DNA from: a virus
Direction: 5' to 3' (one strand)
Virus record (IMG/VR): IMGVR_UViG_3300023278_000826
Span: 1 to 30,061 of that record
Length of the DNA: 30,061 bases
The position numbers and the translations under genes were made by a program. Shown piece after piece: positions 3,456 through 27,472 of this stretch; the stretch's first letter is position 1, and each line of letters starts with the position of its first letter. The notes under the pieces were generated by a model that ran no database searches, was not told where the DNA came from, and saw nothing but the letters and a program-made list of their open reading frames with translations.

Positions 3456-3544
3456 TCGGTAGCATATGAAATACGTTGGGTAATCTCCCGGCTAAACACT
3501 TTCAAAACCCCAAAACAACCACATGGGAACGAAATAATTTTCTA

Positions 3545-5230
3545 ATGTCAGACCTTCGCCCCCGTCTCATCCAACTCGCAAAGGCTAAAAAAGCACTGCG
3601 GATGAAGCTGGAGAAGGAACATCTTGAGGGGAGTTTGATCGAGTTCTATCGGGCAGCATGGCATGTCATTGATCCAGCTGCCTATCAGGATAACTGGCAC
3701 CTAGATGCGATTGCAGAACATCTGGAGGCTGTGGCGCGCGGTCAAATTCGAAAACTATGCGTGAACTTACCGCCTAGGCATTCCAAGACGATCCTATGCA
3801 GCGTGGCGTTCAATGCCTGGATTTGGTGCCAGAAGCCGGACGAGCGCTATCCTTTGCTTGGTCCGGGCTCGCGGTTCATGTGCTTGTCGTATGGCGACGA
3901 CTTGGCGATGGACAATTCCGTTCTCACGCGGCGTTTGATCGAAAGCCCGTGGTATCAAGAGCGGTGGGGCGATCGTGTCGCCATCCACAAGGATCAGGAC
4001 GCTAAAGGCAAGTTTGATACCACATCTGGCGGCACTCGAATATCTGGATCGTTCAGAGGAACGGTGACGGGTCGCGGCGCTGGCATTCGCGTCTATGACG
4101 ATCCGCACAAGATGGATGAGGTCGAAAGCCAAACTCAACGCGAACGGGTCTTGACGCTCTACAATACGACACTCAAATCTCGCGTGAATGACCCGCGAAC
4201 GTCTGCTGAAGTGTTGGTGGCACAGCGTGGTCATCAGGATGATTTGTCCAGCGTGTTTTTGAACGACCCGGAAACCGTGCACCTCAACTTGCCAGCCGAG
4301 TACGATACAACTCGGCATTGCGTGACATCGCTTGGATGGGAAGACCCGCGTACCTACGATGGTGAGTTGCTATGGGCTGATCGATGGGGACCAAAAGAGC
4401 TAGCACAGTATAAGCTCAACCCATACGAATGGGCGGCACAGTGGCAACAGCAGCCGACACCACGCGGTGGCGGATTGATCCATGAAGAATGGTTCCAGCC
4501 GCATGAGGTCCGTAGGGGCGACGGCGGAATGCTACGGTTTATCCCAGAGGTCAAGCCGCTGTATGTGCTGGCGTCGCTCGATACGGCGTTCAGCGAGAAA
4601 GAAACGGCCGACTACAGCGCCCTGACGATTTGGGTTGTTCACGAAGACCCAATCACGAAGCACCGCAAGATTTTGCTTGCCGACGCTTGGCAGAAGCGGC
4701 TGCCTGAATTGAGCGGCGAGACGGTCGAACGCGAAGACGGCGAAAGTGAAATTTCATGGAAGAAACGCCAGCAAGCCAAGTGGGGACTTGTCGAGTGGGT
4801 TGGCTATTCCTGTAAGCGCCGTCGCGTTAATCAGTTGATCATCGAGAACAAAAATCGTGCACCCGATGTTGTGCGCGCCATCAAACGACTGTTCGCGGAT
4901 CGAGATTTTGGCGTCCAAGCCATCAACATCCACGGCGACAAGCGTTCGCGCGCCAGTGCAATAGTTGATATTTTTACGGACGGCATGGTTCATGCGCCAG
5001 CCGTGATTACCAAGAATGACGACGTTCAATTTCTTGATTGGGCGTCCAACGCCATGCAAGCAATTTGCTCCTACCCGCACGGGTCACATGATGACTTGCT
5101 TGATGCAATGACATTGGGATTGAAGTATCTTCGAGACAACGGTTGGGCCATCCGCAAAGACGAACACAAGGCCGATGAGCTTGCAAGATCGCAGCATCAG
5201 AGCCAACGAGATGCCTTGTATCCCGTCTGA
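3545..5230 (+). CDS. terL: terminase large subunit
   Basis: This is the ATP-driven DNA-packaging motor and headful or cos nuclease. The N-terminal ATPase shows the atypical Walker A CVNLPPRHSKT near residues 72-82 and a Walker B-like VYDDPHK near 182-188. The C-terminal RNase H-like nuclease shows LASLDTAF near 342-349, IIENKNRAP near 432, and the SHDDLLDAM acidic pair near 514-522. At 561 residues it has normal family length and appears intact. I chose ATG 3545 (MSDLRPRLIQ) over TTG 3476 because conserved-looking sequence begins there; neither has a strong ribosome-binding site. It acts with the small terminase upstream and the portal at 9143. Confidence 0.93.
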   Translation: MSDLRPRLIQLAKAKKALRMKLEKEHLEGSLIEFYRAAWHVIDPAAYQDNWHLDAIAEHLEAVARGQIRKLCVNLPPRHSKTILCSVAFNAWIWCQKPDERYPLLGPGSRFMCLSYGDDLAMDNSVLTRRLIESPWYQERWGDRVAIHKDQDAKGKFDTTSGGTRISGSFRGTVTGRGAGIRVYDDPHKMDEVESQTQRERVLTLYNTTLKSRVNDPRTSAEVLVAQRGHQDDLSSVFLNDPETVHLNLPAEYDTTRHCVTSLGWEDPRTYDGELLWADRWGPKELAQYKLNPYEWAAQWQQQPTPRGGGLIHEEWFQPHEVRRGDGGMLRFIPEVKPLYVLASLDTAFSEKETADYSALTIWVVHEDPITKHRKILLADAWQKRLPELSGETVEREDGESEISWKKRQQAKWGLVEWVGYSCKRRRVNQLIIENKNRAPDVVRAIKRLFADRDFGVQAINIHGDKRSRASAIVDIFTDGMVHAPAVITKNDDVQFLDWASNAMQAICSYPHGSHDDLLDAMTLGLKYLRDNGWAIRKDEHKADELARSQHQSQRDALYPV

Positions 5231-5267: not shown

Positions 5268-5459
5268 ATGGTGCACCAAGAGATTGAAGACCTCGCTAGA
5301 TATCTATGCAAGCGGGACGGGCAAGACCCTGATGCTGTTGTGTTCTTGCGGCTTCCGCACGGCAAGAAAAAGCAGGAAGTTCTATGGCGCTTGTACGTTT
5401 CTGTTGCGCGCGGGGTGCACTTGGTGCATGCTGAACCTGCTAGCTATTCGGTGAATTGA
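5268..5459 (+). CDS. small hypothetical protein
   Basis: A 63-residue product starts at ATG 5268, preceded by CGGGA seven bases away. An upstream ATG at 5211, inside the terminase gene, would give a longer form. The sequence is helical and charged, with a strand-like AVVFLRLP and a KKKQEVLWRLY segment. No family is recognised. It is tucked between the large terminase and the polyvalent gene, whose ATG lies just after its stop codon, so the two are probably translationally coupled. Confidence 0.5.
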   Translation: MVHQEIEDLARYLCKRDGQDPDAVVFLRLPHGKKKQEVLWRLYVSVARGVHLVHAEPASYSVN

Positions 5460-9142: not shown

Positions 9143-11647
9143 ATGTCCATGTCACAAGATTTCAACGCGCCGAAGCCAAAGCGCAAGCGCACCAAGAAAT
9201 CCGATGGATTGTTGCCGGCGTTCGCCGCGTTCGATTCGTCCGAAATCACCATCCCAACCGCAGATGACGGCCCCAAAGACGACAGCGGAATTACCATTAA
9301 TCCTATGACTGGCGCAGTCACGATCGATCATGACGACGGCTCGATTACGATTGATCCGACCGGCGAAAGCCTCCATGAGCCCGACCTGTCCGGCCCATCA
9401 GCACACCAGGATAACCTTGCAGACCGCATTGATATCATGGAGCGTAATCGTATCGCCGAAGATTTGCTTGATGCCATCGGGTCCGACAAGCAAGAGCGCA
9501 CGTCGTGGGAAAACATGCGCGCCAAGACGATTGAGTTGCTTGGTATGAAACTGGAAGACCCGAAGTCGAGCGTATCAACGTCGTCGTCCGGCATGAGCAC
9601 TTCGGTTGTCCGTGATCCGGTTCTACTAGAGGCGGTCGAGCGGTTTCGTGCCAATGCGTTTGCCGAGCTATGCCCGGCTGCGGGTCCGGTCAAGGTGGTC
9701 GACTTCGGCTCTGAGACGGCAAACAGCGATGATCTCGCCAACTGCCTGCAAAAAGACCTGAACTACTATCTCACGACAACCGCAAGTGAATATTACCCCG
9801 ACACCCGCTATATGCTGTGGTGGACGGGTCTCGCATCCGGGACATTCAAGAAGGTCTACAAGTGCCCGCTGCGCCGTCGCCCGGTCTCCGAGTACGTCGA
9901 TGGAACACATCTGATTGTCCCATCAAACGCGACCGACTTGAAGAACGCAGGGCGCATTACGCACGAAATCTCAATGCGCCGATCGACCATGAAACGCATG
10001 CAAATCCTTGGGGTCTATCGCGATGTGGATTTGACGGAACCACTGGCGCAAACACCAAGCGTGGTCGATGCTAAGAAGGCCAATATCGAAGGTAAGTCTG
10101 TCCAGTCCCAGCGCGTCGAAGATCAGGAATACACTGTATTCGAATGCTATTGCGAGCTTGATATCAAGGGCTTCGAGCACCAGGAGGATGGCGAGGAAAG
10201 CGGGCTTCCATTGCCATACCGTGTGACGATCGAGGAGGGTTCGCGCCAAATCCTTGAAATCCGCCGCAATTGGGAGGAAGACGACGAAGACCAGATTGCG
10301 CAAATCCCATTCGTGCTGTTTCCCTATTCGACGGGTCTAAGCCGCATTTACGGGTCCGGCCTTGGTCAGATGATGGGCAACATGGCAAGTGCGCTAACGG
10401 CCCTGTTGCGTATATCCATCGATAGCGGCATGGCCGCAAACTATCCTGGATTGTTGAAAGCAAAGGGATCGGGTCGCCAGCTTTCAAACGAAATTGTCGT
10501 TCCTCCGGGCGGATGCGCCGAGATCGATACGGGAGGTCTCCCCATTCGGGATTTTGTCATGGGGATGCCGTACAAAGACGTATCGGCAATGGTCGTTCAG
10601 TTGATCGAGCAAACGCGCAATGTTGCGCAACGTCTTGGTGGAACTGCAGATTTGCCAGTCGGGGAAGGCAAGCAAGACGCGCCTGTCGGAACTACGCTTG
10701 CAATGATCGAACAGGCGACCAAGATCGAGGGTAGCGTTCACAAGGCGCTGCACGCGGCACAGAGCGAAGAATTTCGACTGTTGGTCAAACTGTTCCGCGA
10801 TGATCCGGAAAGCCTGTGGCGCGGCAATCTGCGTCCTGCCATGGGATCAGCCAAGACCGAGGCCGATAAGCAGGCCCGGTTGGTGAAGTTCAAAGCCGCA
10901 CTCGACAACTGTAATATCATCCCGATGGCTGATCCGAATGTGCCGAGTGAAATGCACCGCATCTTGAAAGGCATGAGCCTGAAGCAGTTGACACAAGGCA
11001 ATCCGGCGTATGACCAGATTGCGGTGGATCGGCGGATAGCAGCAATTCTGAAGATCGACGATTTCGACAGCTTGCTTGCCCGCAATCCAGGCCAGCCGCA
11101 GCCTGATCCATTGGCCATTGCCATGCTTCAAATCAAGGCCAAGGAAGTCGAGATCAAGGAACAGAAGTTGCAGCTTGACGCACAGAAAGCCGATAAGGAC
11201 CGGCAGTCGAAGGAAGGCATTGCCTCGTTGCAGATCGCAAAGGATATGCACGGACAGCCAACCGGCGCACCCGCACAGCCACAAATCGATCCGCTGGCGG
11301 CAGGAGCACTACAGCTCAAGCATCGCCAGCAGCAATTGCAAGAGGCCAAGATGGGCTTGGACGCTCACAACGCCCATAAGGATCGGCAGTCTAAGGAAAC
11401 CATCGAGGCCATGCGCATTGCCGAGCGGATGGTGACACATCCCGAGGCTCAAGGAGTGGTCAACAACGAGCTGGATAGCCTGTCTGAGTACATGACGCCA
11501 GCAACCGCAAACGCCGAGCCACAAGCACAGCAAGCGCCACCAATGAGCAATGGCGGACCTGTTGGCGGGTATCAGGATCGAGAGGCATTCCTGTCGGCGG
11601 TGGCAAGGGCTATTGCGCTTGGACCGATCTCGGAAACTGTGAATTAA
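9143..11647 (+). CDS. portal protein
   Basis: The portal forms the dodecameric DNA channel at one capsid vertex; it docks the terminase during packaging and the tail afterwards. The 834-residue protein starts at an ATG with a GAGGA site nine bases upstream. Family-like core sequence runs from about residue 95 to 640, including SSSGMSTSVVRDPVLLEAVERF, YKCPLRRRPVSEY and IYGSGLGQMMGNMASALTAL, resembling large podovirus portals. The N-terminus is Lys-rich and acidic. The C-terminal 180 residues are a Gln/Lys/Ala-rich helical region with a duplicated unit (about 654-714 and 715-768, each starting DPLA and containing KDRQSKE). This would fit a barrel-like helical extension. A SNGGPVGGY motif near the end is shared with other proteins here. 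Confidence 0.88.
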   Translation: MSMSQDFNAPKPKRKRTKKSDGLLPAFAAFDSSEITIPTADDGPKDDSGITINPMTGAVTIDHDDGSITIDPTGESLHEPDLSGPSAHQDNLADRIDIMERNRIAEDLLDAIGSDKQERTSWENMRAKTIELLGMKLEDPKSSVSTSSSGMSTSVVRDPVLLEAVERFRANAFAELCPAAGPVKVVDFGSETANSDDLANCLQKDLNYYLTTTASEYYPDTRYMLWWTGLASGTFKKVYKCPLRRRPVSEYVDGTHLIVPSNATDLKNAGRITHEISMRRSTMKRMQILGVYRDVDLTEPLAQTPSVVDAKKANIEGKSVQSQRVEDQEYTVFECYCELDIKGFEHQEDGEESGLPLPYRVTIEEGSRQILEIRRNWEEDDEDQIAQIPFVLFPYSTGLSRIYGSGLGQMMGNMASALTALLRISIDSGMAANYPGLLKAKGSGRQLSNEIVVPPGGCAEIDTGGLPIRDFVMGMPYKDVSAMVVQLIEQTRNVAQRLGGTADLPVGEGKQDAPVGTTLAMIEQATKIEGSVHKALHAAQSEEFRLLVKLFRDDPESLWRGNLRPAMGSAKTEADKQARLVKFKAALDNCNIIPMADPNVPSEMHRILKGMSLKQLTQGNPAYDQIAVDRRIAAILKIDDFDSLLARNPGQPQPDPLAIAMLQIKAKEVEIKEQKLQLDAQKADKDRQSKEGIASLQIAKDMHGQPTGAPAQPQIDPLAAGALQLKHRQQQLQEAKMGLDAHNAHKDRQSKETIEAMRIAERMVTHPEAQGVVNNELDSLSEYMTPATANAEPQAQQAPPMSNGGPVGGYQDREAFLSAVARAIALGPISETVN

Positions 11648-13699: not shown

Positions 13700-14242
13700 A
13701 TGTCGAAAACCAATCTTCAACTCAAACCACTGTCGCATTCACTCAAGTCGCTGCCGCATCTTTCCCAACCGACGCAACCGATGATCAAGCGCCGATTGAA
13801 TGTCGGTCGCACGCCGGCAGGTAAGCGCAATTACCATACGATCGAATTCAGGCACGAAGTCGACCCTAAGACGGTCATTCTGGACAAGATCGGTAAAATC
13901 GACGACGGCGTGATGCAGCTGTCCCGCATTCTGATTGCGGTTTATCAGCCTCCGGCCGCTCCAAAAACGCAGGGCGGATTGATCCTGCTCGACACGGCGA
14001 CCGAAGAAGACCTTGAGGAATACCTATGGCAAGGCAAGGTCGGATTGATCGTCGCAATGGGACCGCAAGCCTATGTCGATGACGATGTGAATAAGTTTCA
14101 CGGCACGAAGAACTCGATCGGCGATTGGGTCTGGTTCCGTCCGTCTGATGGCATTCAGTGCGATGTCAATGGTGTATTCTGTCGGATCATGACGGAAGCC
14201 AGTATCATCGGTAAAATCCCTCATCCTGATTATGTGTGGTGA
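13700..14242 (+). CDS. GroES/Cpn10-like co-chaperonin
   Basis: The 180-residue protein has a 60-residue leader, then a section resembling the Cpn10 fold: ILIAVYQPPAAPKTQGGLIL (strand, mobile-loop-like Gly segment, strand). This is followed by WQGKVGLIVAMGPQAYVD and GDWVWFRPSDG, which correspond to the GxVxxVGxG and GDxVxF positions of GroES. The proteins form a dome on GroEL and help fold large substrates; phage T4 gp31 plays this part for its own coat protein. The position directly before scaffold and coat genes fits a role in coat folding. An AAGGGA ribosome-binding site precedes the start. Similarity is distant, so the alternative is a structural protein with a related beta fold. Confidence 0.6.
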   Translation: MSKTNLQLKPLSHSLKSLPHLSQPTQPMIKRRLNVGRTPAGKRNYHTIEFRHEVDPKTVILDKIGKIDDGVMQLSRILIAVYQPPAAPKTQGGLILLDTATEEDLEEYLWQGKVGLIVAMGPQAYVDDDVNKFHGTKNSIGDWVWFRPSDGIQCDVNGVFCRIMTEASIIGKIPHPDYVW

Positions 14243-16249: not shown

Positions 16250-16286
16250 GCAAGAAAAATTCATCGCATCGCAATTTTTCTCTTGC
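16250..16286 (+). terminator. terminator-like stem-loop after the scaffold operon
   Basis: GCAAG and AAAAATT (16250-16261) pair with AATTTTT and CTTGC (16273-16286), with a two-base bulge and an 11-base loop. The stem begins two bases after the stop codon at 16246-16248. The T-run is inside the stem rather than after it, so termination efficiency is uncertain. Confidence 0.4.
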
Positions 16287-16336
16287 AGCAAATCGCCGAC
16301 ACACCTACAAATCAAATCACAGAGTGTCCAAGCGTA

Positions 16337-16509
16337 TCCGGTTAAAGGTCTCCAACATCGAGACCGAGGGTGTTCAAATCGCCCCGGAAATGTAAATCCC
16401 GGCCAGTTGACTGGCTGAGTAACGGTGAAAGCCGAACAGGGATAGAGCCGCAATCAAGTCGTTACAAAACGTAACGGGTTGAAAGCATTGTCAATCGACG
16501 GCGCTATCC
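16337..16509 (+). ncRNA. candidate structured RNA upstream of the capsid genes
   Basis: About 170 bases without a convincing gene fold into consecutive helices. A closing stem TCCGG (16337-16341) with CCGGA (16384-16388) encloses two hairpins: GGTCTC/GAGACC (16347-16365, seven-base loop) and GGGTG/CGCCC (16368-16384) with the tRNA T-loop sequence TTCAAAT. Next come GCCAG-TTGA-CTGGC (16402-16415) and CGGT-GAAA-GCCG (16423-16434, a GNRA tetraloop). Then an 11-bp helix with one mismatch (16440-16450 with 16499-16509) encloses the perfect hairpin CGTTAC/GTAACG (16460-16476). It may be a leader of the capsid mRNA, a processed small RNA or a packaging or regulatory signal. It matches no RNA family I know. 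Pairing was found by eye; no folding energy was computed. Confidence 0.4.
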
Positions 16510-16512
16510 TCC

Positions 16513-16656
16513 ATGACACTCCATCTTTCACACATCAGCACGGTTTGCGGTTCATCCGCATTCATTGCTCTGTTTGCGAATGGGTCTGAGCGCGCCGCCT
16601 TCATTAAGGCAACTCGGACAAAACCATGGCAAACACCAATGCACCCTTTGGCCTGA
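16513..16656 (+). CDS. possible 47-aa leader ORF overlapping the capsid gene start
   Basis: A frame from ATG 16513 encodes 47 residues with sensible composition (ISTVCGSSAFIALFANGSER, then AAFIKATRT) and ends inside the next gene at 16656. The start lacks a Shine-Dalgarno; the preceding TCCTCC is anti-Shine-Dalgarno-like. It could be a regulatory leader peptide or chance. Two hairpins (16546-16560 and 16597-16610) lie within it. Confidence 0.2.
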   Translation: MTLHLSHISTVCGSSAFIALFANGSERAAFIKATRTKPWQTPMHPLA

Positions 16657-17258
16657 GACAGATCGGTCTCAACGGCTCCCCCACAACTAATTTCTCGATG
16701 GCAGAGCTTCGTAACGGTATTTCGTCGGCCAATGCGACCGCGATCTATACCGGCGATCTCATCAAAATGCTGTCCACTGGCTTTGTAGCTCAGTGGACCG
16801 CAGGAACGGCCGCATCTCAGGCATGGGGCATTTTCTCCGGCTGCCGCTACGTGTCGAATAGCCAGCAGATGCCGGTTCCGAATAAGTATTGGCCGGGGAC
16901 CGATGCCGCATCTGGCTCTGTCTTGCTTCAATACATTCCAGGTATTCTTTCGCCCGCACCACTGTTTGTAATCCAGACGGATGCCACCGGCATTACCAGT
17001 GCTGACATCGGTGCCAATGCTGACATTGTTGTTGGCACGGGTTCTACTACGAGTGGCATGTCCGGCTCGTATCTGGATGTTTCCACGCTTGCAACCACTG
17101 CAACGCTTCCGCTGCGGATCGTCGATCTTTGGGCTAACCGCGCCATGGGTGGCAATGAAACCGCTGGCGTGGGTTCTGCGCTGCTTCCTGGCACGCAAGC
17201 CGGTGCTTACAACTATGCGGTTGTCGCTCTGAACGTCTCTAGTTCTACCGGCATCTAA
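16626..17258 (+). CDS. putative capsid decoration or minor head protein
   Basis: The 210-residue protein begins MANTNAPFGLRQIG and continues with AIYTGDLIKMLSTG, GIFSGCRYVS and KYWPG. I recognise this pattern from head-associated proteins encoded directly next to coat genes in tailed phages. It is Gly/Ser/Thr/Ala-rich and beta-like, with no membrane or signal segment. The coat gene follows after 44 bases, so the two are probably co-expressed. The ribosome-binding site is weak (GGAC about nine bases upstream) and lies after a small hairpin at 16597-16610. A role in stabilising the shell is inferred from position and family resemblance. Confidence 0.6.
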   Translation: MANTNAPFGLRQIGLNGSPTTNFSMAELRNGISSANATAIYTGDLIKMLSTGFVAQWTAGTAASQAWGIFSGCRYVSNSQQMPVPNKYWPGTDAASGSVLLQYIPGILSPAPLFVIQTDATGITSADIGANADIVVGTGSTTSGMSGSYLDVSTLATTATLPLRIVDLWANRAMGGNETAGVGSALLPGTQAGAYNYAVVALNVSSSTGI

Positions 17259-17302: not shown

Positions 17303-18220
17303 ATGGCTATTAATACAGCAGCAATCTATCAGCTTCTTCGCCCCGGCCTTCGCGAGATCGACGGCGCTTATCCAAACATCCCAACGCAGTATAAGAAGGT
17401 GTTCAAGTCGACGCCGAGCACGATGCAAATCGAGCGTACTGCGCATGTGGCCTATATGGCAGCAGCGCAGATCAAGCAGGAGGGCGGTGCTACTCAGTTT
17501 GATAACGGCGCTGGGACGCGGTGGGTTTACAACGCTGAGACCTACGAAGTCGGGCTTGGCTACGCGATCACTCGCAAGGCTATCCGCGACAACCTCTACA
17601 AGACCGAGTTCAAGCCGACTGCGCTAGGTCTTGCCAAGGCGTTCAAGGAATTCTGGGAAATCCAGGCATTCAACGTATTCAACAACGGCACGACGTATGA
17701 TGCGTCTGTCGTTGGCGATGGCAAGGCACTGTTCGCAACCGATCATCCGGTTGACGGCAGCACATGGGCCAATCGCTTTACGACTGACCTTGACTTGAAT
17801 GAGGCATCTCTCATTCAGGGCATCAAGAATATCCGAACCAACTGGGTTGACGAACGCAATCTCAAGATCATGGGTCGCCCGCGTAAGGATGGCCTGATGG
17901 TTCCGATCGCCTTAATGGACGTGGCAGAGCGCATTACCAAGACCGAAATGCGCCCCGGCACCAACGACAATGATGTGAACGCCGCGCGATCGATCGAAGG
18001 CGGTATCACCGATTATATGGTGTGCGATTACCTGACCAGCAACTTCGCTTGGTACTTGCTCACTCAGAATGAAGGACTCAACTTCTTCGAGCGTGATCCA
18101 TTCGAGACAGATATGTGGGTCGACAACTCGACGGATAACCTTTTGGTTAAGGCTTATCAACGTGCGCAGCCAATCTACAGCAATTCTCGATGCGCATACG
18201 GATCATTTCCAACCTCTTGA
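17303..18220 (+). CDS. major capsid protein (HK97-type fold, Mu gpT-like)
   Basis: This is the probable shell subunit, 305 residues long. Diagnostic segments are the start MAINTAAIYQLLRPGLREID, an E-loop-like middle VYNAETYEVGLGYAITRKAI, and FKEFWEIQAFNVFNNGTTYD. The FATDHP.DG.TWANR segment near 150-165 is typical of Mu gpT-like coat proteins. The later LMVPIALMDVAERI and MVCDYLTSNFAWYLLTQNEG fit the axial and peripheral domains. No N-terminal protease-cleaved delta domain is evident, which agrees with a separate scaffold gene upstream. A GAAAGGA site precedes the start. The small size is within the range for this family. Confidence 0.88.
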   Translation: MAINTAAIYQLLRPGLREIDGAYPNIPTQYKKVFKSTPSTMQIERTAHVAYMAAAQIKQEGGATQFDNGAGTRWVYNAETYEVGLGYAITRKAIRDNLYKTEFKPTALGLAKAFKEFWEIQAFNVFNNGTTYDASVVGDGKALFATDHPVDGSTWANRFTTDLDLNEASLIQGIKNIRTNWVDERNLKIMGRPRKDGLMVPIALMDVAERITKTEMRPGTNDNDVNAARSIEGGITDYMVCDYLTSNFAWYLLTQNEGLNFFERDPFETDMWVDNSTDNLLVKAYQRAQPIYSNSRCAYGSFPTS

Positions 18221-19208: not shown

Positions 19209-19766
19209 ATGGGCAAGATGTCAAATAGCCAACGGCAGAACTGTGCCTATGGTGGTACTCCGAAAATGCGGGATATCGGCGGCGTCAAAGCCATGCCTTA
19301 CGGGCATAGTGATAATGCCGTCATGCGTGAAGCCAAGGCTGGCACGACTGGCAAGATTGGCATGTCTGGGATCGGTAAAGACGGTGAGCCGGTGAAATCC
19401 CGGCTTGATCGTCCCGGCCGTAAGGCTGGTGGCCGGGTCAATCGTGAAAGCGGCGGCCCGATAATCTCGGAAGACAGTAAAAAGGAAGCCGCGAGGCTTC
19501 GTGCCGAAGCGCGCGAAGACAGGAACAATGCGTTGATGAGTGCAGGGTCGGCATTGTTCACTGGAGTAATGAATAAGATGCCTGGTGGCGGTGCCATTAC
19601 AAAGGGCATCGGTCATGCGTTGACGGCTGGAAATGCTGGCGCTGCTGGACTTAGTGGTCTCAGCAGTCGTGCGAAATCTTCGGAAGCCGATCTCATTGAT
19701 GCTGGTCGCATGAAACCCGGCTATGAAGATCGCAAGTCCGGTGGTCCTGTAAAGAAGGGCAAATAA
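19209..19766 (+). CDS. basic Gly-rich protein with GG-x-V motifs
   Basis: The 185-residue protein is basic and mostly disordered, apart from a helix (SKKEAARLRAEAREDRNNAL) and a Gly/Ala segment (KMPGGGAITKGIGHALTAG) that could touch a membrane. It carries RKAGGRV, ESGGPI and, at its end, KSGGPVKKGK. The first is identical to a motif in the Pro/Gly-rich protein at 12178-13041, and both are preceded by an LxRxGRK stretch, so the two may share ancestry or a partner. It lies between two beta-rich virion genes with two- and three-base gaps, so it is almost certainly expressed with them. Function unknown. Confidence 0.55.
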   Translation: MGKMSNSQRQNCAYGGTPKMRDIGGVKAMPYGHSDNAVMREAKAGTTGKIGMSGIGKDGEPVKSRLDRPGRKAGGRVNRESGGPIISEDSKKEAARLRAEAREDRNNALMSAGSALFTGVMNKMPGGGAITKGIGHALTAGNAGAAGLSGLSSRAKSSEADLIDAGRMKPGYEDRKSGGPVKKGK

Positions 19767-25808: not shown

Positions 25809-26552
25809 ATGTCGCTGACATACTCAACGACGGTATCGTCACTTGCGGTGCTCATGGCGGAAGATCCAACCAACGTGGATTTTCTTGCCATGGTTCCGAA
25901 TGCGATCGCATATGCGGAAGGGAGGATTTACCGCGAATTAAATATGATTGTCGGTAACATTCGTGATGCAACAGGGGTCACCTCGTCAACCACCCGTAAC
26001 TTCAATCTGCCGACTGGTATAGGTACGTTTTTGATTATCGACGGGATCAATATCATTACCCCAGCAGGAACAGCGGCAGATAGTGGAACGCGGCATCAAT
26101 TGACGCCAGTTTCACGTGATGTTCTGGATATGGTTTGGCCAAGTTCGACCGGCGCAACGGTGCCATCGATGTTTGCGTACATCTCACAGAATACGTATCT
26201 GGCTGGTCCCGCAGCACAGACGCAAGTTATCTTTGGGCCATGGCCGGATGCTGCATATACGGTTGAGGTCATCGGTAAAATTCAACCCGCAGCCATGACG
26301 GCCATCAATCCCAACACGTTTTTAGGCGACAATTTGTCGGACCTGTATCTTGCGGCGTGCATGATATACATGTGCGGTTTTCAAAAGAACTATTCAGCCA
26401 CTTCTGATGATCCAAGATCGGCCGTATCATGGGAAGGCCAGTACGTCGCGCTTCGAGATTCAAGCGCGACGTGGGAGGCAAGAAAGAGATTTAGTGGAGC
26501 GTCGTGGACATCAAAAATGGTTGAGCCAACGGCCGTTAACCAAAGAGGCTAA
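25809..26552 (+). CDS. P22 gp4-like tail adaptor protein
   Basis: The 247-residue protein shows the organisation of phage connector adaptors: an N-terminal helical part (MVPNAIAYAEGRIYRELNMI), a beta-rich middle (RNFNLPTGIGTFLIIDGINI, then QVIFGPWPDAAYTVEVIGKI), and a helical end (LSDLYLAACMIYMCGFQKNY, then SWEGQYVALRDSSATWEARK). In P22 the adaptor (gp4) sits below the portal and receives gp10. The gp10-like gene is the next plus-strand gene here, beyond the inserted endonuclease. Its stop overlaps the minus-strand endonuclease stop (CTAA at 26549-26552), so the homing gene ends exactly at its 3' end. Confidence 0.55.
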   Translation: MSLTYSTTVSSLAVLMAEDPTNVDFLAMVPNAIAYAEGRIYRELNMIVGNIRDATGVTSSTTRNFNLPTGIGTFLIIDGINIITPAGTAADSGTRHQLTPVSRDVLDMVWPSSTGATVPSMFAYISQNTYLAGPAAQTQVIFGPWPDAAYTVEVIGKIQPAAMTAINPNTFLGDNLSDLYLAACMIYMCGFQKNYSATSDDPRSAVSWEGQYVALRDSSATWEARKRFSGASWTSKMVEPTAVNQRG

Positions 26553-27418
26553 TCTCCTTTGGCAAATTCTCCGAACAGTTCGTCTGCTTTCTTCTTGTAA
26601 GCCGCAGATGCCTCATCTAAATCTGTAAATCTGCCTAAGTAATAACTCTTTCCTTTGTGTTGAATTTGGGCAGTGTATTTTCCAGCGCTTATCGTAACTC
26701 CTTTCCTTCCTGTCAATGTATTAGCGTTGCCACGGCTGTTTCCACTGTTTTGCGTTGGCGTTGCCTCACGTAGGTTGCTAAATTTGTTGTTAGTTCGGTT
26801 GCCATCCATGTGATCAATTTGATCCTTCGGCCAATTTCCGGTCATGTAAAACCACGCTAGGCGATGAGCAGTGTAACTTTTATAGTCGATACCGATAAAA
26901 ATGTATCCATTACCTTTGTTGAATGTTCCTGCATTCTTGCCTTTGCTTTTTGGAACACCACTTCGATATGAATTCCACTCAAACGTCCCTTCATCAGGAT
27001 CGTATGTCATGACTTCGCGCAGTCGGCCAAAAGTTAGATCAACCCCCTTTCTGGCCCTAGTCTTGCATCCGCATGACTTTGTTACACCCTTGCGTAAAAG
27101 TGAACTTGACGCAAACGTTTCGTTGCCGCAGTCACACATGCACCTCCATCGTGCCGATCCATCCTTGCTTGAACCAGATCGATCAATCGCAGTAAGGTTA
27201 GAAAATCTCAATCCGGCTATATCGTATGGCGATCCAACTAGGCATCCGCATGACTTTGTGTTACCGCTCAATAGATGAGTTCCGCAAACTTCTTTGATAT
27301 TTCCGCACGAGCATTTGCACTCCCAAATCACACCTCCACTACTGGTTCTTTTCTCTGTTTTTAGTACAACAGTCAAAAAGTTGAACTTTTTCCCGATCAA
27401 ATCAGATGGTTGTCCCAT
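26549..27418 (-). CDS. AP2/HNH homing endonuclease
   Basis: With ATG 27418 (GGAG site seven bases upstream) the protein is 289 residues; an in-frame longer form of 307 is possible. Two Cys-rich finger-like units come first: Cys34-36-38-45 with 57-59, and Cys93-95-97 with 116-118, each ending KSCGC. An HNH_3-type core follows at about 183-225 (AHRLAWFYMTGNWP, then IDHMDGNRTNNKFSNLRE; His203 central). The C-terminus (238-285) matches an AP2 DNA-binding domain (KYTAQIQHKGKSYYLGRFTD). Such proteins cut DNA at a specific site to spread themselves. It lies antisense between two tail genes, is A+T-richer than its neighbours, and has its own promoter, all signs of a recent insertion. It appears intact. 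Confidence 0.88.
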   Translation of the reverse strand: MGQPSDLIGKKFNFLTVVLKTEKRTSSGGVIWECKCSCGNIKEVCGTHLLSGNTKSCGCLVGSPYDIAGLRFSNLTAIDRSGSSKDGSARWRCMCDCGNETFASSSLLRKGVTKSCGCKTRARKGVDLTFGRLREVMTYDPDEGTFEWNSYRSGVPKSKGKNAGTFNKGNGYIFIGIDYKSYTAHRLAWFYMTGNWPKDQIDHMDGNRTNNKFSNLREATPTQNSGNSRGNANTLTGRKGVTISAGKYTAQIQHKGKSYYLGRFTDLDEASAAYKKKADELFGEFAKGD

Positions 27419-27443
27419 ATTTGCACTCCATTTGTTTGTTAAC

Positions 27444-27472
27444 ATTAACACATAAATAAGTTCGGTTGTCAA
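27444..27472 (-). promoter_or_regulatory. promoter of the HNH endonuclease gene
   Basis: On the minus strand a perfect TTGACA (27467-27472) is followed after exactly 17 bases by GTTAAT (27444-27449), which matches four of six positions of TATAAT. It lies 26 bases before the start codon of the endonuclease gene. It fits autonomous early expression of the homing gene. Confidence 0.6.

Follow-up and report, generated by a model that had tools for sequence, protein, structure and literature searches.

A conserved structured RNA directly upstream of a head gene in a clade of uncultured phages

What is the heavily structured RNA encoded just before the capsid genes of an uncultured phage, and does it act on them? 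The question is raised by IMG/VR record IMGVR_UViG_3300023278_000826, all 30,061 bases of which were analysed and are termed the window here. Phages express few genes as heavily as those of the capsid and, to our knowledge, control of capsid genes by structured RNA has rarely been documented. A structured RNA of about 180 bases occupies the gap between genes ending by 15971 and the capsid block, directly 5′ of a head gene; a preliminary description had placed such an RNA just before the capsid genes. That description gave its extent as 16337–16509; this stretch is indeed structured, but the element is larger, running from roughly 16333 to 16515 on the plus strand, with promoter-like sequence upstream. 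The genome setting is as follows.

3476–5230: terminase large subunit (phrog_38, E 1.1e-72 in PHROGs)
9143–11647: portal
13700–14242: GroES-like gene
16250–16287, plus strand: A+T-rich inverted repeat GCAAGAAAAATT...AATTTTTCTCTTGC, seen directly, a possible terminator of the upstream gene block
16283–16311, plus strand: sigma70-like promoter TTGCAG-17-TACAAA, predicted start near 16318
16626–17258, plus strand: head protein, first gene of the capsid block (phrog_37556, PHROGs E 1.3e-15)
17303–18220, plus strand: major capsid protein, Mu gpT-like (Pfam PF10124, E 5.5e-6; phrog_371, major head protein)

The head gene at 16626–17258, whose PHROGs family carries no functional annotation and which was named 'decoration-like' from its place alone, in relatives lies immediately 5′ of the major capsid gene. 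Pelagibacter phage HTVC023P, Roseobacter phage CRP-902 and phage DSL-LC04, which are cultured or deposited distant relatives, keep a GroES gene, two further genes, the head gene and the capsid gene in this order. Downstream within the structural gene block, an HNH homing-type endonuclease gene (26549–27472, minus strand; Pfam HNH_3, E 2.3e-14) is opposite in strand to its neighbours.

The folding energy of the RNA was compared with that of dinucleotide-shuffled sequences. Positions 16337–16509 fold at −64.6 kcal/mol, far better than the shuffles (−45.9 ± 3.8; z −4.9, 0 of 200), and inclusion of the conserved 5′ end (16333–16515) gives a z of −4.75. The helices listed in the preliminary description were found at their places, among them the GNRA hairpin at 16423–16434, which is exact (CGGU-GAAA-GCCG, closing pair U-G), and the 11-bp helix, interrupted by one mismatch, around a perfect hairpin (UCAA-g-UCGUUAC/GUAACGg-g-UUGA, inside 16454–16482). 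The claimed three-way junction is likewise present and conserved (P2/Pa/Pb, 16396–16443), but it differs from the junction of the minimum-energy fold. Elsewhere in the phage, 100 windows of 185 nt gave a mean z of −0.57 (sd 1.33). One coding window, at 19501, fell below the leader's value (−5.67, on recheck −4.0), and folding energy alone is therefore weak evidence, since a coding stretch of the same phage scores as low. That stretch, 19501–19685, contains long hairpins inside the open frame 19209–19766. Among homologues, the z value was modest for L006 (−1.5) and L012 (−1.3), and L008 and L013 folded no better than their shuffles. The parts of the RNA are listed below.

16333–16392, plus strand: 5′ cloverleaf-like domain, a layout also found in L006, L004, L003 and L014
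16333–16340 with 16385–16392, plus strand: acceptor-like stem
16347–16365, plus strand: anticodon-like arm, loop CAACAUC
16368–16384, plus strand: T-arm-like hairpin, loop UUCAAAU, joined without a gap to the acceptor-like stem
16396–16400, plus strand: strand P2a, AUCCC, pairing with 16439–16443
16401–16416, plus strand: hairpin Pa, four of four pairs with double changes in alignment A8 (below)
16417–16422, plus strand: junction strand GAGUAA (of 10 homologues, 6 share GAGUA unchanged and 8 share GAGU)
16423–16434, plus strand: hairpin Pb, GAAA tetraloop
16439–16443, plus strand: shared strand P2b, GGGAU, pairing with P2a or with the 3′ strand of P3
16439–16510, plus strand: P3/P4/P5 domain, in the minimum-energy fold and, by model R1 (below), in held-out members
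16439–16449 with 16500–16510, plus strand: P3
16454–16482, plus strand: P4 hairpin
16490–16499, plus strand: P5

The cloverleaf-like domain, the arms of which were picked by eye, pairs in five members through entirely different letters. Its anticodon-like loop reads C(A/G)ACAWC across members (CGAGAUC in L003), and its T-arm-like loop UUCAAAU in the window and UCCAAAU in L006. An optional D-like hairpin is present in L004, L003 and L014 and absent from the window and L006; in the former three (e.g. L014, 2361–2400) it is flanked by AUGA ... UGAGA/GAGA, which is reminiscent of a kink-turn. Hairpin Pb, its stem and loop sequences changed, recurs in L006, L004, L003, L014, L002 and L008 and is absent from L010, L012 and L013. 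The P3/P4/P5 domain carries the conserved string GCCGC...GUC...GACGGCGCU. Two further readings were tried and rejected: a loop E/sarcin-ricin motif formed by GAGUA...GAA is inconsistent in L003 and L008, and no consistent pseudoknot partner was found for the anticodon-like loop.

Homologous loci were collected from IMG/VR by searches with the capsid protein, which gave 13 loci at 70–84% identity, and with the head protein, which gave 80 further or overlapping loci. A related RNA was found in 10 loci on the same strand and at the same place, 117–347 nt before the head gene. Shape is kept far more than letters: upstream of the head gene, the only BLAST alignments were with L006 (104 nt at 70%) and with a short stretch of L008, but helices and short conserved strings follow one another in a common order in L006, L004/L005, L003, L014 and L002. 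Reduced forms occur in L008, L010/L011, L012 and L013, down to approximately 100 nt in the last two. These amount to about 10 independent members, all uncultured, with helices partly chosen by eye. The leaders of L010 (approximately 5298–5330) and, at the same place, L011 are nearly identical and are followed by different hairpins (GTTCTACGAAAATTTCGTAGAAC and AGATTTCCGACAAAAGCGGAAATCT, respectively), as if this hairpin had been swapped as a unit.

A covariance model, R1 (99 positions), was trained on the window, L006 and L004. Because MAFFT misaligned the hairpins of untrimmed sequences, the variable hairpin interiors were manually shortened in the training set; trimmed alignments of four and five sequences were off register and were excluded from use. 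Among 21 loci and records (178 kb), R1 recovered the held-out members L014 (E 1.3e-4) and L008 (E about 4e-4) and, more weakly, L003 (E 0.03) and L002 (E 3.1). Every match in this set, including those to the training members and the near-copy L005, was directly 5′ of the head gene, the place before homologous coat genes at which the preliminary description had proposed to look for relatives. R1 did not find L010–L013, and membership of those four is a reading by eye. Across 455 kb of distant head-gene loci the sole convincing match was L020, the contig of L008, and at E≤1 there was none in 1.49 Mb (712 kb + 776 kb) of control viral DNA picked for containing pieces of the motif. Scans of IMG/VR with GCACGTC-N-GACGGCGCT and GAGTAACGGT-N-GCCGAA gave chance matches except for L002, and none matched R1 at E≤1. 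BLASTN of the window and L006 leaders against GenBank phages returned chance short matches or none, and bacterial genomes searched with the capsid protein held no relative.

Covarying pairs, also proposed as a check in the preliminary description, were sought in alignment A8 (six sequences). Compensatory changes are present: 92% of cells were paired, compared with 74% after re-dealing; 13 of 23 pairs had changes on both sides (5.5 expected; 0 of 500 shuffles); 20 cells carried double changes (6.3 in shuffles; 0 of 500); and the covariation score was 0.47, compared with 0.145 ± 0.036 (0 of 500 shuffles). Sliding the partners by one to three columns lowered pairing to 30–46%. This covariation leans toward the model, because A8 was fitted to it, and the held-out search with R1 is the cleaner test. 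Together these data show that pairing of this architecture is under selection in the phage clade, just 5′ of the same head gene. Two of the outcomes that the preliminary description had named as refuting, a folding energy no better than that of shuffles and a lack of compensatory changes, were contradicted by these results. The element is almost certainly a conserved cis RNA.

It was of interest to determine whether the RNA belongs to a described family. None of the 4227 Rfam families matched the window at the gathering score, and at E≤10 the leader gave one chance lncRNA match only; the leaders of L006, L014 and L004 gave nothing credible. The tRNA-like layout, assigned by hand in the window, L006, L004, L003 and L014, has acceptor, anticodon-like and T-like arms in cloverleaf order, with the T-arm directly on the acceptor and, in the window, the loop UUCAAAU. 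Unlike a tRNA, however, the leader has no CCA and no usual anticodon loop, the D-arm is often missing, ARAGORN found no tRNA or tmRNA, and the Rfam tRNA model (RF00005) was negative. The preliminary statement that the RNA fits no known family thus agrees with these searches.

The three stems meeting at a junction whose strands read CUGA(G)UA and GAA(C) (16396–16443 and homologues) superficially resemble a hammerhead ribozyme. That candidate was rejected, the junction being CUGAGUA instead of CUGANGA, with no UH cleavage site between the stems and with letters that vary in homologues (UUGAGUAA, GGAGUAAA). The packaging RNA of phage phi29 is likewise a phage RNA with a three-way junction (PMC5340915), and it has a length of about 174 nt. 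A phi29-type packaging RNA was likewise rejected, there being no Rfam match and a large terminase of phrog_38 instead of a phi29-type ATPase.

Known leaders offer closer parallels. As in riboswitches and autogenous leaders (e.g. those of ribosomal proteins), two exclusive folds, here putative, precede a gene start, but no Rfam model is matched. The leader of T7 gene 10, which is short and combines a single main hairpin with a translation enhancer, raises expression of a capsid gene and also lies, as a structured 5′ leader, directly before it; compared by architecture, the present leader is different, with approximately 180 nt, a cloverleaf-like domain, a three-way junction and exclusive helices. 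No report of such an RNA was found in the literature searched, which lay largely outside subscription journals. A cis-acting structured mRNA leader is a known kind of element, and this architecture matches none of the families tested.

The sequences flanking the RNA bear on whether it is part of the capsid mRNA. The terminator-like stem noted upstream in the preliminary description exists as the A+T-rich inverted repeat at 16250–16287, but it is weak as a terminator because the terminator scan does not list it. The promoter at 16283–16311 matches 7 of 12 consensus letters and was too weak for the promoter scan, which missed it; its support therefore lies in its repeated position across members, a TTGnnn-17-nnnnnn pair being found 22–33 nt 5′ of the RNA in the window, L006, L004, L003, L014 and L002. 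A transcription start at a promoter approximately 15–30 bases before the RNA is strongly suggested, and the RNA would therefore form the 5′ end of the capsid mRNA. Of the three options offered in the preliminary description, a capsid-mRNA leader is the best supported (promoter-like site, same strand, constant position), and the element is very probably such a leader.

Two predicted features follow P3.

16513–16656, plus strand: candidate leader ORF of 47 aa, starting right after P3 and overlapping the head-gene start
16586–16628, plus strand: predicted structure over the head-gene ribosome-binding region AAGGCA and start codon

An AUG follows P3 with 0 nt between them in five of the five fullest members (window, L006, L004, L003 and L014). 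The candidate ORFs have 47, 43, 32, 15 and 17 codons, respectively, and end between 15 nt before and 31 nt inside the head-gene start; neither a ribosome-binding site nor a clearly conserved peptide was found for them in these five. The GGC of AAGGCA is predicted to be paired in the window, L006, L003 and L014.

The 3′ strand of P2 has two complementary partners, one preceding Pa and one following P3. Its letters differ among members (GGGAU in the window; GGGAG, CAGGG, ACGGG and GGGAA in others), and 49 of 50 cells are paired in P2 (over 10 homologues) and 38 of 45 in the P3 extension. A register-free test, with fixed windows and partners re-dealt among members, gave 32 of 5000 for P2 and 21 of 5000 for the P3 extension. 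Two exclusive folds thus appear to be conserved, P2b pairing with either P2a or P3, and a switch is therefore suggested. In computed ensembles of the full RNA, the P3 extension has a probability near 1.0 and P2 one near 0 in seven of nine members; in a transcript ending before the 3′ strand of P3, P2 forms in L003 (0.97), L012 (1.0), L002 (0.62) and L014 (0.48), the P2b/P3 overlap in L014 being one pair only by the main alignment. Because the finished RNA favours P3 and the shortened RNA forms P2 in some members, a co-transcriptional two-state RNA is the best reading of the shared strand, though not a proven one.

A translation switch had been among the options of the preliminary description. 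The apparently conserved, mutually exclusive helix pair, which that description had missed, speaks for it, but the energies of the window, L006 and L004 do not: in the shortened RNA of these three, P2 is hardly predicted (≤0.09), and the switch may therefore be an artefact of strands that are rich in C or in G. The U-run after P3 that marks a riboswitch with an intrinsic attenuator is absent; UCCAUGAC follows P3, and no terminator is listed there. Two-state control of capsid expression is accordingly offered as a tentative possibility, somewhat short of an even chance.

Several other explanations must be weighed against a regulatory leader. The structure might only protect the 5′ end of the capsid mRNA and keep the start region open, with no switching; strong structure at the predicted mRNA start would suit this, as would the wide variation in shape, down to the approximately 100 nt of L012 and L013, which is expected if only stability mattered. 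Conservation of the unpaired GAGUAA, GCCGC and GACGGCGCU, together with the exclusive helices, nevertheless exceeds the needs of a protective stem, and such a passive leader is considered rather unlikely. The nascent RNA might instead modify RNA polymerase so that terminators in the long capsid-tail operon are read through, in the manner of the put RNAs of phage HK022. Its strong hairpins and its location, close behind a promoter-like site and ahead of a long head–tail gene block, fit this role, but put RNAs are shorter and consist of two hairpins, Rfam gave no match, and both the AUG after P3 and the shared strand would be left unexplained; we regard this explanation as improbable.

The stable small RNA and packaging RNA of the preliminary description have nothing specific in their favour. 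A separate RNA ending near 16515 and acting in trans would account for the compact, strong fold and its own promoter-like site, and a three-way junction is shared with phi29 pRNA (PMC5340915). Against it, the terminator scan lists no terminator after the RNA, which in every case shares the strand of the head gene and immediately precedes it, and the phage has an ordinary large terminase; the chance of such an RNA is therefore put as slight. Least probable, and very unlikely, is a tolerated by-product of a packaging or recombination site in the DNA, the inverted repeats of which mimic RNA structure. The intergenic position beside head genes would be suitable for such a site, but the complementary changes spare the conserved unpaired junction letters and the orientation is fixed relative to the promoter-like site and the gene.

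More distant phages provide a comparison at the same gene. Most of about 75 of them, with head proteins of about 40–50% identity, carry a different leader there (L023, L028, L030, L038, L043, L046, L090, L091 and others; e.g. L043, 2911–3004). It consists of two hairpins with equal loops, CCCCGGYGYG, followed by a ribosome-binding-site hairpin that ends at the start codon, and 11 of its 15 predicted pairs are compensatory (24 sequences). A second model, R2, finds it in GenBank MW202675 and in dozens of contigs, at approximately −90 to +4 relative to the head gene, and gave no match in the leaders of the window, L002, L003, L004, L006, L008 and L010–L014. Rfam holds no match for it; the twin-hairpin leader is widespread and previously undescribed and has no Rfam family. 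In MW202675.1 (L225, 2653–2729), a tRNA-Met gene resembling bacterial initiator tRNA lies just 5′ of the capsid block and the twin-hairpin leader.

Like the leader of the window, the twin-hairpin RNA is structured, lies immediately before the homologous head gene, and has the ribosome-binding site within a predicted hairpin. It differs from that of the window clade in its two hairpins with equal loops, and there is no convincing sequence relation. Homology of the two leaders was rejected, the best shared strings (e.g. AAUCGCCCCGG) being within or near the range of shuffles. The twin loops suggest that a dimeric RNA-binding protein may be the partner. Since a different structured leader precedes this gene in related phages, control at this point recurs; the presence of two unlike RNAs at one gene argues that control of this gene start is what is selected.

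Taken together, the preferred reading is that the RNA is a structured, cis-acting 5′ leader of the capsid-operon mRNA that probably controls translation or mRNA fate. Transcription would begin approximately 15–30 bases before the RNA, and the three-way junction closed by P2 could form during synthesis. As the downstream strand emerged, P3 would capture the shared P2b and P2 would open. The first state might be held by a head protein, a host factor, a ligand or the timing of transcription and translation, and whatever held it would set access to the AUG after P3 and to the coupled, structured head-gene start; alternatively, the output of the two states could be mRNA stability. A more elaborate version, in which the tRNA-like domain and three-way junction would respond to capsid protein, to the state of host translation or to a metabolite and, through exchange of the shared strand, switch translation of both a leader peptide and the capsid genes, is considered unlikely.

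The comparative alignment makes the leader directly testable by compensatory mutation. If either leader is a switch, regulated RNA parts for expression work would become available. A switch in this leader or in the twin-hairpin RNA would also show how uncultured phages time or balance the synthesis of their head proteins.
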